From positions 1 to 32,577 of the IMG/VR virus record IMGVR_UViG_3300005613_000255: DNA of 32,577 nucleotides, one strand, 5' to 3'. A model generated the notes under the pieces. That model did not search any database. It was not told where the DNA came from and saw only the letters and a list, made by a program, of their open reading frames with translations. Within the stretch, counting starts at the first letter, position 1. The number at the start of each line of letters is the position of its first letter. Below are positions 2,833 through 16,222 of the stretch, piece after piece. A program made the translations under genes and the position numbers. This stretch comes from a virus.

Positions 2833-5800
2833 TTATTTAGAGAATTTCTCCATATGGTCAAGGAACCGTTCAGCAGCAGCTTGATCACCACCCCTGAGAT
2901 AACTACCAGTGACTTCTTGAATGTACATTTTACGATTAATCGAATCTCGACTAGGTGATGTAGCAGAAGCCATTCTCATAGCTTGACGTAACTCACGATC
3001 CAACAGGATGTGGACGCTTTCAAATTCACTTAGATCTGGTTCACGCCCAGCATTAACAGCTTTCATGTAGTTCTTACGGAATTGTTTAGCTTCCGTTGTT
3101 TGCATGACACGTTTAATGCCTTCTTTGAACAAACCATCACGACCCATAATATCAGTAATTTCAGATCGTTCTTCAGTCGTCAACTCAACACCCTTACCAT
3201 TGGTACGGAGAGTAGGACGTGCATCATATTCAATATCAATAAGGAATTGTTTTTCTGGGCTAATCTCACCATTTACTTTCCAAGGCATATAAGTGTTCCA
3301 CACCCTTGCCAAGAAATTATCAGGGATTCCAACAGGACCACCATCAATCCAATCATATTTAACTGGAAGTTCTCCTTTAACACCAGGCAGACGATTTTGA
3401 ACCATAGTAAATAGATCCATCTCTACTTCTTTTAGACCAGGATCCATAAGACGAGAGATCTCAGCAAGCTGACTAGAACCAGGAATAGTAGCACTTGTTA
3501 GGAAACTAGAAGACCATTTGTTAATAGCTCCAACATCACCCCTAACTACATCAAGGAATGGCTGAATACCAGCAAGCATAGTCTTTTCTGTAACAGAAGA
3601 TGCAAAGATAAAAGATAACTTTTTAAATTGTTCACCAATATCATTTGCTGATAATGAATCAAAGTTATCTGCTACATCAGCAGTTAATGCTAACCAATTG
3701 GTAATAGGACCAAGGTTATCATAACTAACCCACTTACCACCAGGCAAACGAATAGACCGTGGTTTCCAATTAGCATCACGCCTTAGTGCTTGTTTCTGTC
3801 TGTTGTAATGACCATTACCAGTAATTCGGTCTGACATAAACAAACTAACAGCACCAGTAACAGCAAGAGCACCTAGAGCTTTACGTCCTTTAATATCAGC
3901 ACGAATCTCATTGTACTTTGCTCTTGCATTGTAAGGTGTAACTTCAATACCTCTTGAAGTGAGCAATTGCTCAACCTCATCAATTGGCATATCTTCAAAA
4001 GGTCTTCTAAATGAATTAAAATCTTTTACAAAGACACCAAGAGGAGTATAAGAAGCCATCAATGAAAGTTCATTAAGAGGAGTTTTAGTGAACAACAAAA
4101 ATGGTTTTAAAATAGGTGCTCTACGAATCATGGCAGACAATGCATCATTAGCTTTATTGTCAAGATTCAATGCGATCTCACCTGCTGTAGCCTTCACAGC
4201 TTTATCAGTAATAAGATCATTTTCATCAAACATTTCCTTACGTACTTTACGGTATAAAGCATCAGCACGTTTAGCATCAAATTCTAGCTTACCACCTTGA
4301 GTAATTTCATCAAATGCTCTACCTTTTGCTTCGGCTGTAGCAATCATGGATTGGGTAAATCCATCAAAGGCTTGCATTGCACGATTACCAAACCTAAGCC
4401 AAGGATGATTAGCAAGATCATTCATATTATTGACGATCTCCATCATAGTTTGAGGACCGTACTCACCTTGTGCTGCTTTAGCATCAGCAAATGTCTGAAG
4501 AATTTCAAGTTGCTTTTCATTCTTCAGACCCATATCATCACGTAATTCAATAAGATTAGGATCAGCTCCTGACCTTTTGAATACTTGATTCATGTACTCA
4601 AATGAATCTTGCAGTGTTTCAATGACACTATTATACTGATACCATCCCCTTCTAAGGGTTTCCTTATCACCATGCAATAAAGCACCAACAGAAGCCCTGA
4701 ATGGTTTTTCAATGAGTTGTGCGGTGTTAGCAATACCAGCTTTAATTGGTGTGGCAAAAGCACTCAATGCACTATTGTACACATTAGAATAAAAACCCTT
4801 CATCACAACAGAAGGAATCTCAGGTTGATTATCAATCAATGCTTTACTTAGTACACCAGTAGATTGCTTAACATAGTTATTAAGACGTGTAATGCTATTT
4901 ACATTACCATCAGTAAACTCATAAGCCATCATCAATGGTGCTAGAAGTTCAGGATTATTGTCTTTAATCTCACGTAAATTGTCAACTGTTACCTTAGCAT
5001 CTTGTTTAATACGTTCAATAGCAGCAAGGGTTTGGTTCTTTTCATTTTTAATAAGGTTCTGCATTCTTGTGGCTTCAGCCATATTAAATGCTTCAGAACC
5101 TTTCTTTGTCATACGATTCCAAAGGTTCAGCATATTCAATGCTCTACCACGAGAATAGGAAGTCATACCCTTTTGTGCCATAAGGAACTCAACCCTATCA
5201 AGGATTTGTTCTTGAGCACGTTCAATAGCAGGTGTTCCTTCAGTAAGACGCATACCTTGTGCCATATCAGAAATCTGACCACCCATAGAAGTACCTACAT
5301 ACGCTTGAGAACGCATGTAATCCATGTTCATGTAATCATCCATGTACTTCTTAATAGCACCCATGACACCAGCATAAGCTTCTGACTTAAGTACAGGAGC
5401 ACCAGTATCAACATCCAAACCTTGATAGTTTTTGATGACACGTTTCAGTTCAGAAACATCCATCTTATAGAAATCAGCAGCAAGCTTTTCTCCAGTTTCT
5501 ACAACTTCAGCATGACTAATGTATTTACCAGATGCTGTTTTGTAACCATATTCACCAGCATCTTTTAGCTGTTCAGCAAGACCACGAATAATCATTTCTT
5601 GATTACCAGAAGCTTCCAAACCATACTTCAGTGCACCTTCAGAGATTACGCTACCAACACGTCCGTAGATACTATCAATGTTTTCCATAACACGAACAGC
5701 ATCAACAGAAGCACCTACGATACCAAGGTCATCAACAGAACGAATACCTTGCTCTTGATAACCATAAAGATCATGATAACCAAAGATAGGTTCAGATTCA

Positions 5801-13827: not shown

Positions 13828-14964
13828 TCAGAATGCAGAAGGAGCAGAAGCACCAACATACAGTTCAACAGAAGCAGCAGGGTTGAGGTAGTCAGCACCA
13901 CAAGCCATGCGACCCAGCATCACGTCACCCTGATAAATCACGGAAACGTCACCGCTAGTCACTTGGACTTGGGGACCAATTGCTTCAACCATACCAGCAG
14001 CCTCTTTCTGGAAGATAAGGCCGCAGGACTTAGCACCAACTTCAGCAGCAGTACCATAGTCATTGTTGACACCAGTGGTTGCACCGGAAGCATTCTCCAG
14101 AGCAGGTCCAACGAAGTCACCAGTATTGGTAGGAGAGGTCACACCAGTGGTGCCCCCATAAGCAGTACCATACTTACCCAGGAACGGGATGTTCATGGAC
14201 TTGTAGATACGGATACCAGCGATCTCAATGATGCCGTTACCGGACTGCAGAGCAGTACCTTGTTCGTCACGGTTGATCAGGTAAGCACCGGATCCAGAAC
14301 CACCAACACCTTGGATCAGTTCATAGTACTGACGGGGGTTGAGGACAGCCACACGACCTTCACCACTCACACCCTTCTCATCAAGGGCAGCAGCAGCGTC
14401 ATAGAAAGCAGCAACAAGGTTGCTTGCCACATAAGCATCAGAATCGTTAGCGGTAGCACCAACACGAATCTGAGTACCACCTGGCTCTACATAGTTAGTA
14501 GCAGACACAGGAGAAGCAGCACGAGCACCACGAGTGATAGCACGGAATGCCAGACGGTCATATTTTTCTGCCAGAGCATAGCCGATCTTACGGCTGATCT
14601 CAGAGCGCAGATCATAATGAGAAAGAACTTCATCAAGCTCATACACGAAAGCAGAGCTGATCAGCAGGTCATCACAGGTGATGGTCTTCTCGGCCACCGG
14701 GGGTGCACCGTTGCTGTCACCAAGAATGCTGTTTCCAGGAGTATGGAACTCAGAGCTGGTACGACCCGTGAAGATGAACTGCAAAGATTTGCCGTTCTTC
14801 AGGGTACGCTTCATGATCAGATCCCGAGCAATAGTGTTGTGCTGGAATCCTTTGAACATCTCACCGCTAAAAAGCTTGAGATACAGGGCGCGGCGATCCG
14901 CACCGAAATTAGATGAACCCGGTACAGTAAGCTGTGCGGGGTTCACAGAAGATTGAAATGCCAT
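13828..14964 (-). CDS. Major capsid protein (T7 gp10-like)
   Basis: 378 residues with the T7-type HK97-fold capsid pattern: a start rich in Ser/Asn/Pro, then ADRRALYLKLFSGEMFKGFQ, IARDLIMKRTLKNGKSLQF, a loop with GRTSSEFHTPGN, and ITCDDLLISSAFVYELDE. The C-terminal half has the conserved DVMLGRMACGADYLNP segment. The closest neighbours are the LAGLIDADG gene, whose stop is 11 bases upstream, and a strong terminator 14 bases downstream. The start has only a weak purine-rich stretch (AAGAAAA) ahead of it. I see no frameshift signal for a longer minor form such as T7 10B. Confidence 0.96.
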   Translation of the reverse strand: MAFQSSVNPAQLTVPGSSNFGADRRALYLKLFSGEMFKGFQHNTIARDLIMKRTLKNGKSLQFIFTGRTSSEFHTPGNSILGDSNGAPPVAEKTITCDDLLISSAFVYELDEVLSHYDLRSEISRKIGYALAEKYDRLAFRAITRGARAASPVSATNYVEPGGTQIRVGATANDSDAYVASNLVAAFYDAAAALDEKGVSGEGRVAVLNPRQYYELIQGVGGSGSGAYLINRDEQGTALQSGNGIIEIAGIRIYKSMNIPFLGKYGTAYGGTTGVTSPTNTGDFVGPALENASGATTGVNNDYGTAAEVGAKSCGLIFQKEAAGMVEAIGPQVQVTSGDVSVIYQGDVMLGRMACGADYLNPAASVELYVGASAPSAF

Positions 14965-14975
14965 TTTTCTTAAAA

Positions 14976-15278
14976 TTAGAGTTCAGTATCGTCTAAAACA
15001 TTTAATGTTTTGTAGGCACGACGTTCTCCAAGATAAGGTAGAAGTTGTTCTAGAATTACCTTACACTGTTTACCAACAATTTGCCACTCATATTGGGTTT
15101 TGTGGGGATGACGCTCGCGAGTGCGTACATTTCCCAGCCCAAATAAAGCTACAAATTTATTGACAACATCTTTATCAGTCATAGTAAGACCGATTTTAGG
15201 ATATTTCCCATTGCGTGTAATGTAACCTTCTCCTTCAAAGAGCCCGGCAGCCCAGGCAATTTGCAAATTTGTTACCAT
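14976..15278 (-). CDS. LAGLIDADG homing endonuclease, single-motif, free-standing
   Basis: 100 residues. WAAGLFEGEGYI at about residues 9-20 is the LAGLIDADG helix with its catalytic acidic residue. It is followed by KIGLTMTDKDVV and, later, LLPYLGERRAYKTLNVLDD, the usual beta-sheet and C-terminal helix of the family. One motif means it should act as a homodimer that cuts a long, near-palindromic DNA site. It sits 11 bases before the capsid gene, outside any recognisable intron; the endolysin and capsid frames on either side are intact. This is the layout of a free-standing homing endonuclease, which usually cuts homologous DNA of relatives that lack it. It must be co-transcribed with the capsid gene. 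Confidence 0.88.
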   Translation of the reverse strand: MVTNLQIAWAAGLFEGEGYITRNGKYPKIGLTMTDKDVVNKFVALFGLGNVRTRERHPHKTQYEWQIVGKQCKVILEQLLPYLGERRAYKTLNVLDDTEL

Positions 15279-15283
15279 GGTTT

Positions 15284-15407
15284 TTAAAGTTTTGAGATCT
15301 TAGGGCGTCTCAGTGCCACAGCTGCGGCAAAGGGTATCGGACGTATCCGGCCAATGCCAATAGGAATCAGGTCCGACTCTGAGGTGCCTGATTCCCGTTC
15401 GGGAGTA
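15284..15407 (-). other. Structured non-coding leader between endolysin and LAGLIDADG/capsid genes
   Basis: This is the longest stretch without a convincing gene and is visibly richer in G+C than its surroundings. Read on the minus strand it can form a series of hairpins: TCCC-GAAC-GGGA; GGAATCAGG/CCTGATTCC with a 15-base loop (15363-15395); CGGA-TACG-TCCG (15338-15349); TGCCGC-AGCT-GTGGCA (15314-15329); and TGAGA/TCTCA (15292-15311). The first two share GGGA and exclude each other. A 64-codon frame crosses the region but looks like chance. Possible roles are a promoter or processing leader for the capsid message, or part of the mobile element carrying the homing endonuclease. Confidence 0.55.
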
Positions 15408-16076
15408 TTAGATAACTCTCTGGCAAATAGCGTAGTAATGTTTCCTATCATCAAGCCCGTTATACCCACCATTAACACGGAGAGTAACTTGCTCTACTGT
15501 AGGATTAGTATCACACAATTCGTTCATTCCATTTGACTGCCACCAATAACCAGCAGAGGAGAATGGATAATGTTCAGCAACATAATCCACTCCTTCCATT
15601 ACTCTAGGATCACCAATGTAATCAGAGAACTTCTGGTAGTTGTAACGTCCAGAGAGTTGGATATATCCAGCCCCCTTGTACAAAGGACCATCTCCAGGTT
15701 CTGTATTACCGATGTCAGTTCTACCCTCTAGATACCATCCATCACTGATCTCTTTTTTCCAACGTCCTCCACCAGACTCATGAGCAGTCTGACTAAGGAA
15801 ATGTCTAATACGAGAAGGGGTAGTAATTTGAAATCTTTCAAGACATTTGTTCAGTTCAGCAACTTCATGGTTTTTAATTACTGTAACAGAACATTGCCAA
15901 ACTTCAGCTAGTTGTCGTTTTGTTACATAAACATAACTAGCTCGTTTGTTCCTATACTGTTTAGCAAACTCTTCTAGTTGATCATTAGTGAGTTGGGATT
16001 GCAACCACTTAAAAGCTTGTTTTTGATGTACCTCTTCTTTGTAGTAAAGAGCAGCATCAGTGAGGTTGATAGTCAT
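15408..16076 (-). CDS. Endolysin, GH19 chitinase/lysozyme-type
   Basis: 222 residues. Residues 1-65 are a helical, charged N-terminal extension. From about 85 a GH19 domain follows: [18 protein letters not shown] with the likely catalytic Glu at 100, then [17 protein letters not shown] (about 131-147) and [17 protein letters not shown] near the end. GH19 enzymes hydrolyse beta-1,4 links in peptidoglycan or chitin; in a phage this is the lysis enzyme. It replaces the amidase lysozyme (gp3.5) of T7 and lies among the structural genes. I see no signal peptide, so a holin outside this window is probably needed. Its ATG overlaps the preceding stop (ATGA). Confidence 0.9.
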
Positions 16077-16222
16077 TTTTTCTTAGCAGTTTTAGCAGCT
16101 CTTTTAAAGTTAGCAGCAGTAGGAGCACCTTTGCTCCCAGGCTTACGCATCTTCTCGCCAGAGCCCGCAGCGATTCTTTTACGCTTTGCGTGAATGTTCG
16201 AATAAAGACCTTGTTTAGCCAT
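16073..16222 (-). CDS. Small basic phage protein, KGLYxNI...[16 protein letters not shown] type
   Basis: 49 residues starting [18 protein letters not shown] and ending in a Lys/Ala-rich tail ([10 protein letters not shown]). The block around [16 protein letters not shown] recurs in many marine and environmental phage genomes as a conserved protein of unknown function (from memory). It has about 15 Lys/Arg and no Cys, which suggests nucleic-acid or virion contact. It overlaps the upstream stop by 8 bases (ATGGCTAA) and the endolysin start by 4 bases, which supports it as a real gene despite its size. Confidence 0.82.

Follow-up and report, generated by a model that had tools for sequence, protein, structure and literature searches.

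The structured capsid leader of a marine cyanopodovirus hosts a putative free-standing LAGLIDADG homing endonuclease gene

A small LAGLIDADG gene directly before the major capsid gene of a T7-like phage raises the question of whether it is a mobile element in its own right and, if so, what it carries along when it moves from one genome to another. The stretch of DNA analyzed here (the window, all 32,577 nucleotides of IMG/VR virus record IMGVR_UViG_3300005613_000255) is a fragment of a Qadamvirus-like marine cyanopodovirus. On its minus strand, the order is an endolysin gene (15408–16076), a leader element, a 100-amino acid ORF (14976–15278), a spacer of exactly 11 nt between the ORF stop codon and the capsid ATG (14965–14975), and the gene for the major capsid protein (Gp10A-like, 13828–14964), the product of which is the same as that of the relative S-B28. 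The upstream gene had been taken for a lysozyme; its identity is corrected here to an endolysin, as it matches PHROG endolysins (E = 2e-38) and, only weakly, chitinase class I. At the start of this gene (16069–16077) the window lacks psbA, which is present in S-B28, 7B11-B, WH11-B, and contig L002. The deletion is exact and runs from one 9-bp direct repeat (AATGACTAT) to another, which form the starts of psbA and the endolysin gene, and tandem repeats of about 57 nt that include the psbA 3′ end occur in S-B28 and 7B11-B (L083 ~4030–4160, L084 ~3860–4160).

The ORF begins with ATG, is intact, and contains a single LAGLIDADG motif, AWAAGLFEGEG, with Glu17 as the catalytic acid. As originally predicted, the gene is free-standing and lies outside any intron: neither a group I intron nor any other Rfam family was found at threshold in the window, and the endolysin and capsid ORFs around it are both uninterrupted, which rules out a group I intron-encoded homing endonuclease gene (HEG). 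A search of the window for a Syn5-type phage promoter, allowing up to three mismatches, likewise gave no match. The protein matches Pfam LAGLIDADG_3 over the cut-off (E = 1.1e-6) and PHROG 5046 (E = 8e-20); the label of the latter, ‘HNH endonuclease’, is rejected as an identity for this protein, as the motif, the Pfam match, and the fold are those of LAGLIDADG. An AlphaFold2 model built with 57 aligned homologues (pLDDT 94) has the element order alpha-beta-beta-alpha-beta-beta-alpha, a LAGLIDADG fold like that of I-CreI. With this model, Foldseek finds I-CvuI, I-MsoI, and I-CreI as the best matches (TM-score by query length mostly 0.7–0.8), and the top sequence-profile match in the PDB is the bI3 LAGLIDADG maturase, with I-HjeMI, I-AniI, and I-CvuI also matched. 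By analogy with its I-CreI relatives, the protein would be a homodimer.

Homologues of the HEG were collected at 98 loci, representing 77 distinct proteins, and none of the 98 is broken. The original prediction would have been undermined by loss of the catalytic acidic residue in most copies; instead, the catalytic glutamate is retained in 77/77 distinct homologues and both acidic residues of AGLFEGEG are present throughout, a count to be read with the search patterns in mind, which partly favor catalytic-motif conservation among the homologues collected, the motif pattern itself having required the first acidic residue of AGLFEGEG and not the catalytic second glutamate. With a dN/dS of 0.10–0.22, the HEG is under purifying selection. 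The 98 intact loci, this dN/dS range, and the pLDDT of the model together argue that the ORF is not a chance reading frame.

The region into which the gene is inserted is itself a structured element, extending overall from about 15296 to 15395 and found in the same place in L002–L217, where it is conserved and covarying. Its core is modeled as a structured capsid-leader RNA (R1, 15296–15360, minus strand) with P1 and P2 pairings, a UACG loop, and palindrome 1, and its center is a self-complementary stretch that takes 13 different sequence forms. Of the P1/P2 cells, 97.5% keep their pairs, and 71 double changes are seen, versus 78.5% and 21.8 in shuffles. Directly upstream of the core is a hairpin, GGAATCAGG...CCTGATTCC (15363–15395, minus strand), the place of which is taken elsewhere by a tRNA T-arm-like hairpin. 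Each of the eight whole or large records searched holds one copy of the element with a strong score, and it adjoins the capsid gene wherever its position was checked. Rfam offered no convincing match for this RNA, no paper matched all terms of a literature search on such leaders in cyanopodoviruses, and the RNA is apparently undescribed so far. A different RNA, a Glutamine-II riboswitch, precedes a small YRGVxY ORF that in turn comes ahead of the capsid leader in L001 (805–857), L003 (3593–3645), L019 (3445–3497), and L088 (4629–4682). In L019, at 170–2955, a 345-aa reverse transcriptase-like ORF (YRYCDDFV) also has a possible variable protein next to it, which hints at a podovirus diversity-generating retroelement.

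Leaders without the HEG carry a second palindrome about 30–70 nt upstream of the capsid ATG, the sequence of which varies while its palindromic nature is conserved; 59 of the 70 distinct leaders that lack the HEG have one of 10 bp or more before the capsid gene, versus 12% of shuffles. The HEG insertion falls in the leader and displaces this palindrome-bearing segment. In the window, the position of palindrome 2 is occupied by an 8-bp palindrome, ACCATGGT (15274–15281, minus strand), that spans the HEG start codon. Among HEG-bearing leaders, 12/14 have, at or beside the HEG start codon, a palindrome of 8 bp or more, which in 11 of the 12 overlaps this codon or follows it directly, compared with 1/14 for HEGs at other sites, although these loci are not independent and the chance expectation for a single locus is often 3–15%.

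Relatives may have or lack the gene at this site; it is optional, and not fixed among them. S-B28, 7B11-B, and WH11-B share about 98.4% DNA identity with the window over the aligned flanks on both sides and lack the HEG, and a whole-genome search found none elsewhere in these three phages. What they are missing is a tract of 352 bp (14973–15324, minus strand) made up of the 3′ part of the leader and the HEG, in place of which they have about 75–85 nt. More broadly, the HEG is absent at 78 of the 80 capsid loci examined. The insertion point could be mapped with the HEG-less leaders L204, L212, and L217, which were found in a scan for the CAGCTG leader variant of the window. Relative to these, the HEG comes after the pseudoknot-like 3′ part of the leader and before the capsid ATG, in place of about 45 nt that carry the palindrome CTCTGGATCCAGAG in empty leaders of this type. 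The same three leaders led us to reject the idea that the CAGCTG variant is an immune form of the RNA specific to the HEG, because they bear it without the HEG, and they weaken palindrome 1 (CCGTCTAGACGG) as the sole target, because they put the insertion downstream of it.

The leader stretch that travels with the HEG (15279–15324, minus strand, about 46 nt) comprises the CAGCTG variant of palindrome 1 and the pseudoknot-like part, and is counted in the transferred tract of the window because S-B28 bears another variant there. Exchange of flanking DNA is seen over about 46 bp on the leader side and not at all into the capsid gene, the start of which is also the end of the tract, with one difference from S-B28 across 14965–14618. 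This pattern suggests a short, one-sided co-conversion in the window, on the leader side. In L209, the HEG start and nine codons are followed by a stop and then by the capsid gene; this is a remnant of the HEG, and indicates that the gene can be lost again.

Movement between lineages is illustrated by contig L001, which belongs to a different lineage and yet carries nearly the same unit (~96% identical), next to a capsid gene with 82% amino acid identity. Per 50 bp, the identity of the window to L001 is 40–58% upstream, 88–98% in the unit, and 68–88% in the capsid gene. The dS between the two is 0.13 for the HEG versus 0.85 for the capsid gene, and therefore the unit has moved horizontally. 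In a second, independent pair, L099 and L100, the HEG proteins are 100% identical (one base differs), whereas the capsid proteins share 80% amino acid identity. Both cases argue that the HEG moves by itself, independent of its flanks. It had been proposed that cutting of competing phages would spread the surrounding capsid allele, and this is not borne out. Near-identical HEGs adjoin lineage-specific capsid genes in both pairs, the capsid protein of the window is 100% identical to that of HEG-less S-B28, 7B11-B, and WH11-B, and the tract stops at the capsid start. In the available comparisons, the capsid allele thus appears not to have been carried along with the HEG.

In cyanopodovirus-type contigs, members of the HEG family occupy several sites: ahead of the capsid gene or downstream of it, ahead of psbA, and between a DNA polymerase-like and an exonuclease-like gene, both named by synteny with NATL2A-133. 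In L076 (2316–2684) and L184 (4006–4374), where the HEG precedes psbA, its 3′ end runs over the psbA start in another reading frame. The expectation that LAGLIDADG enzymes are uncommon in T7-like phages is fairly well supported for cultured ones, as the annotated phage records matched include, by organism name, only two cyanophages and one Pelagibacter phage of the marine T7-like kind; this type of HEG is less rare in environmental cyanopodovirus contigs. Only three relatives, all distant, were found in bacterial genomes.

From sequence comparison, the genetics of a homing endonuclease gene are supported, namely a gene that is optional at its site, intact, under purifying selection, able to move from lineage to lineage independent of its neighbors, and able to be lost. 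The ORF at 14976–15278 is very probably a free-standing LAGLIDADG HEG, for the product of which we infer DNA cleavage. It is hardly conceivable that the arrangement is an assembly artefact of a metagenomic contig: the exact junction of the window is found in no other contig, but the same gene is in the same place in many other contigs from other samples (L001, L097–L101, L104–L107, L124–L129, and L202–L215), and cultured phages match the window on either flank. All relatives show a modular build of the leader region, and a short stretch of homology on either side would be enough for exchange, so that the HEG could in principle be passive cargo of ordinary homologous recombination at a leader-capsid hot spot, with no endonuclease-driven homing. 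This is unlikely, as the same small LAGLIDADG gene is found every time at four kinds of site, under purifying selection and with its catalytic residue kept.

A further possibility is that the protein is not mainly a DNA endonuclease but works on the leader RNA or on expression of the capsid gene, as an RNA-binding maturase-like or regulatory factor. A conserved structured RNA lies immediately 5′ of the HEG, a leader palindrome extends over the HEG start codon, and the top PDB sequence-profile match of the protein is a maturase, that of bI3. However, the HEG is missing from most leaders (78/80 capsid loci), homologues are found away from the leader (before psbA, and between the polymerase-like and exonuclease-like genes), and the catalytic acid, which maturases often lose, is invariant; we therefore consider such a role quite improbable.

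As a homing endonuclease, the 100-amino acid protein would act in co-infection, where the homodimer would cut the leader before the capsid gene of a HEG-less phage. The break would then be repaired from the HEG-bearing genome by recombination between the two flanks, namely the conserved leader and the capsid start. Copying would bring in about 46 bp of leader and remove the palindrome-bearing leader segment of the recipient, which would protect the new genome from cutting. Our guess at the likeliest candidate target is the palindromic stretch of the leader, CTCTGGATCCAGAG in the empty relatives of the window. In a more elaborate and rather doubtful version, the HEG would home on the leader palindrome, swap in a version that includes its own start codon, and supply a substitute 3′ part of the leader. 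With the palindrome replaced and the 3′ part substituted, the structured RNA of an essential gene would be parasitized without being destroyed.

In phages, free-standing nuclease genes are known to flank conserved genes, and among these nucleases LAGLIDADG members are few, several of them inteins (PMC10448857). Like the free-standing homing endonucleases of phages (PMC6083498, PMC10448857), the HEG of the window is optional and intron-less, lies between conserved genes with empty sites in close relatives, is mobile between lineages, and adjoins an essential gene, which in the known systems may also be the capsid gene. Those enzymes, however, are of the T5orf172, HNH, or Endo VII type, whereas this one is LAGLIDADG, sits in a structured leader RNA, and shows no tract into the capsid gene. 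The homodimeric I-CreI, I-MsoI, and I-CvuI share with the modeled protein the single motif, the fold, and the acidic catalytic position, but they come from group I introns and exceed its ~100 amino acids by about 50, a length difference that counts against homing. Mycobacteriophage LittleE gp14 (PMC3706429) is a homologous LAGLIDADG protein that is also located at the capsid gene; it differs in being 177 amino acids long and encoded antisense inside a spliced intron of the major capsid gene, while the HEG of the window is intronless. F-CphI of cyanophage S-PM2 (PMC6083498) is likewise free-standing, from a marine cyanophage, and adjacent to a conserved gene (psbA), but has an Endo VII catalytic motif, takes part in collaborative homing with an intron, and belongs to a myovirus.

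The window provides a case from a marine T7-like phage where the capsid locus has an optional homing-type gene, which can be set beside near-identical empty sites, copies that moved horizontally, and a remnant left by decay. The case also corrects the idea of hitch-hiking, in that the capsid allele is not carried along here. In addition, work on the HEG brought out a conserved structured RNA before the capsid gene of cyanopodoviruses.
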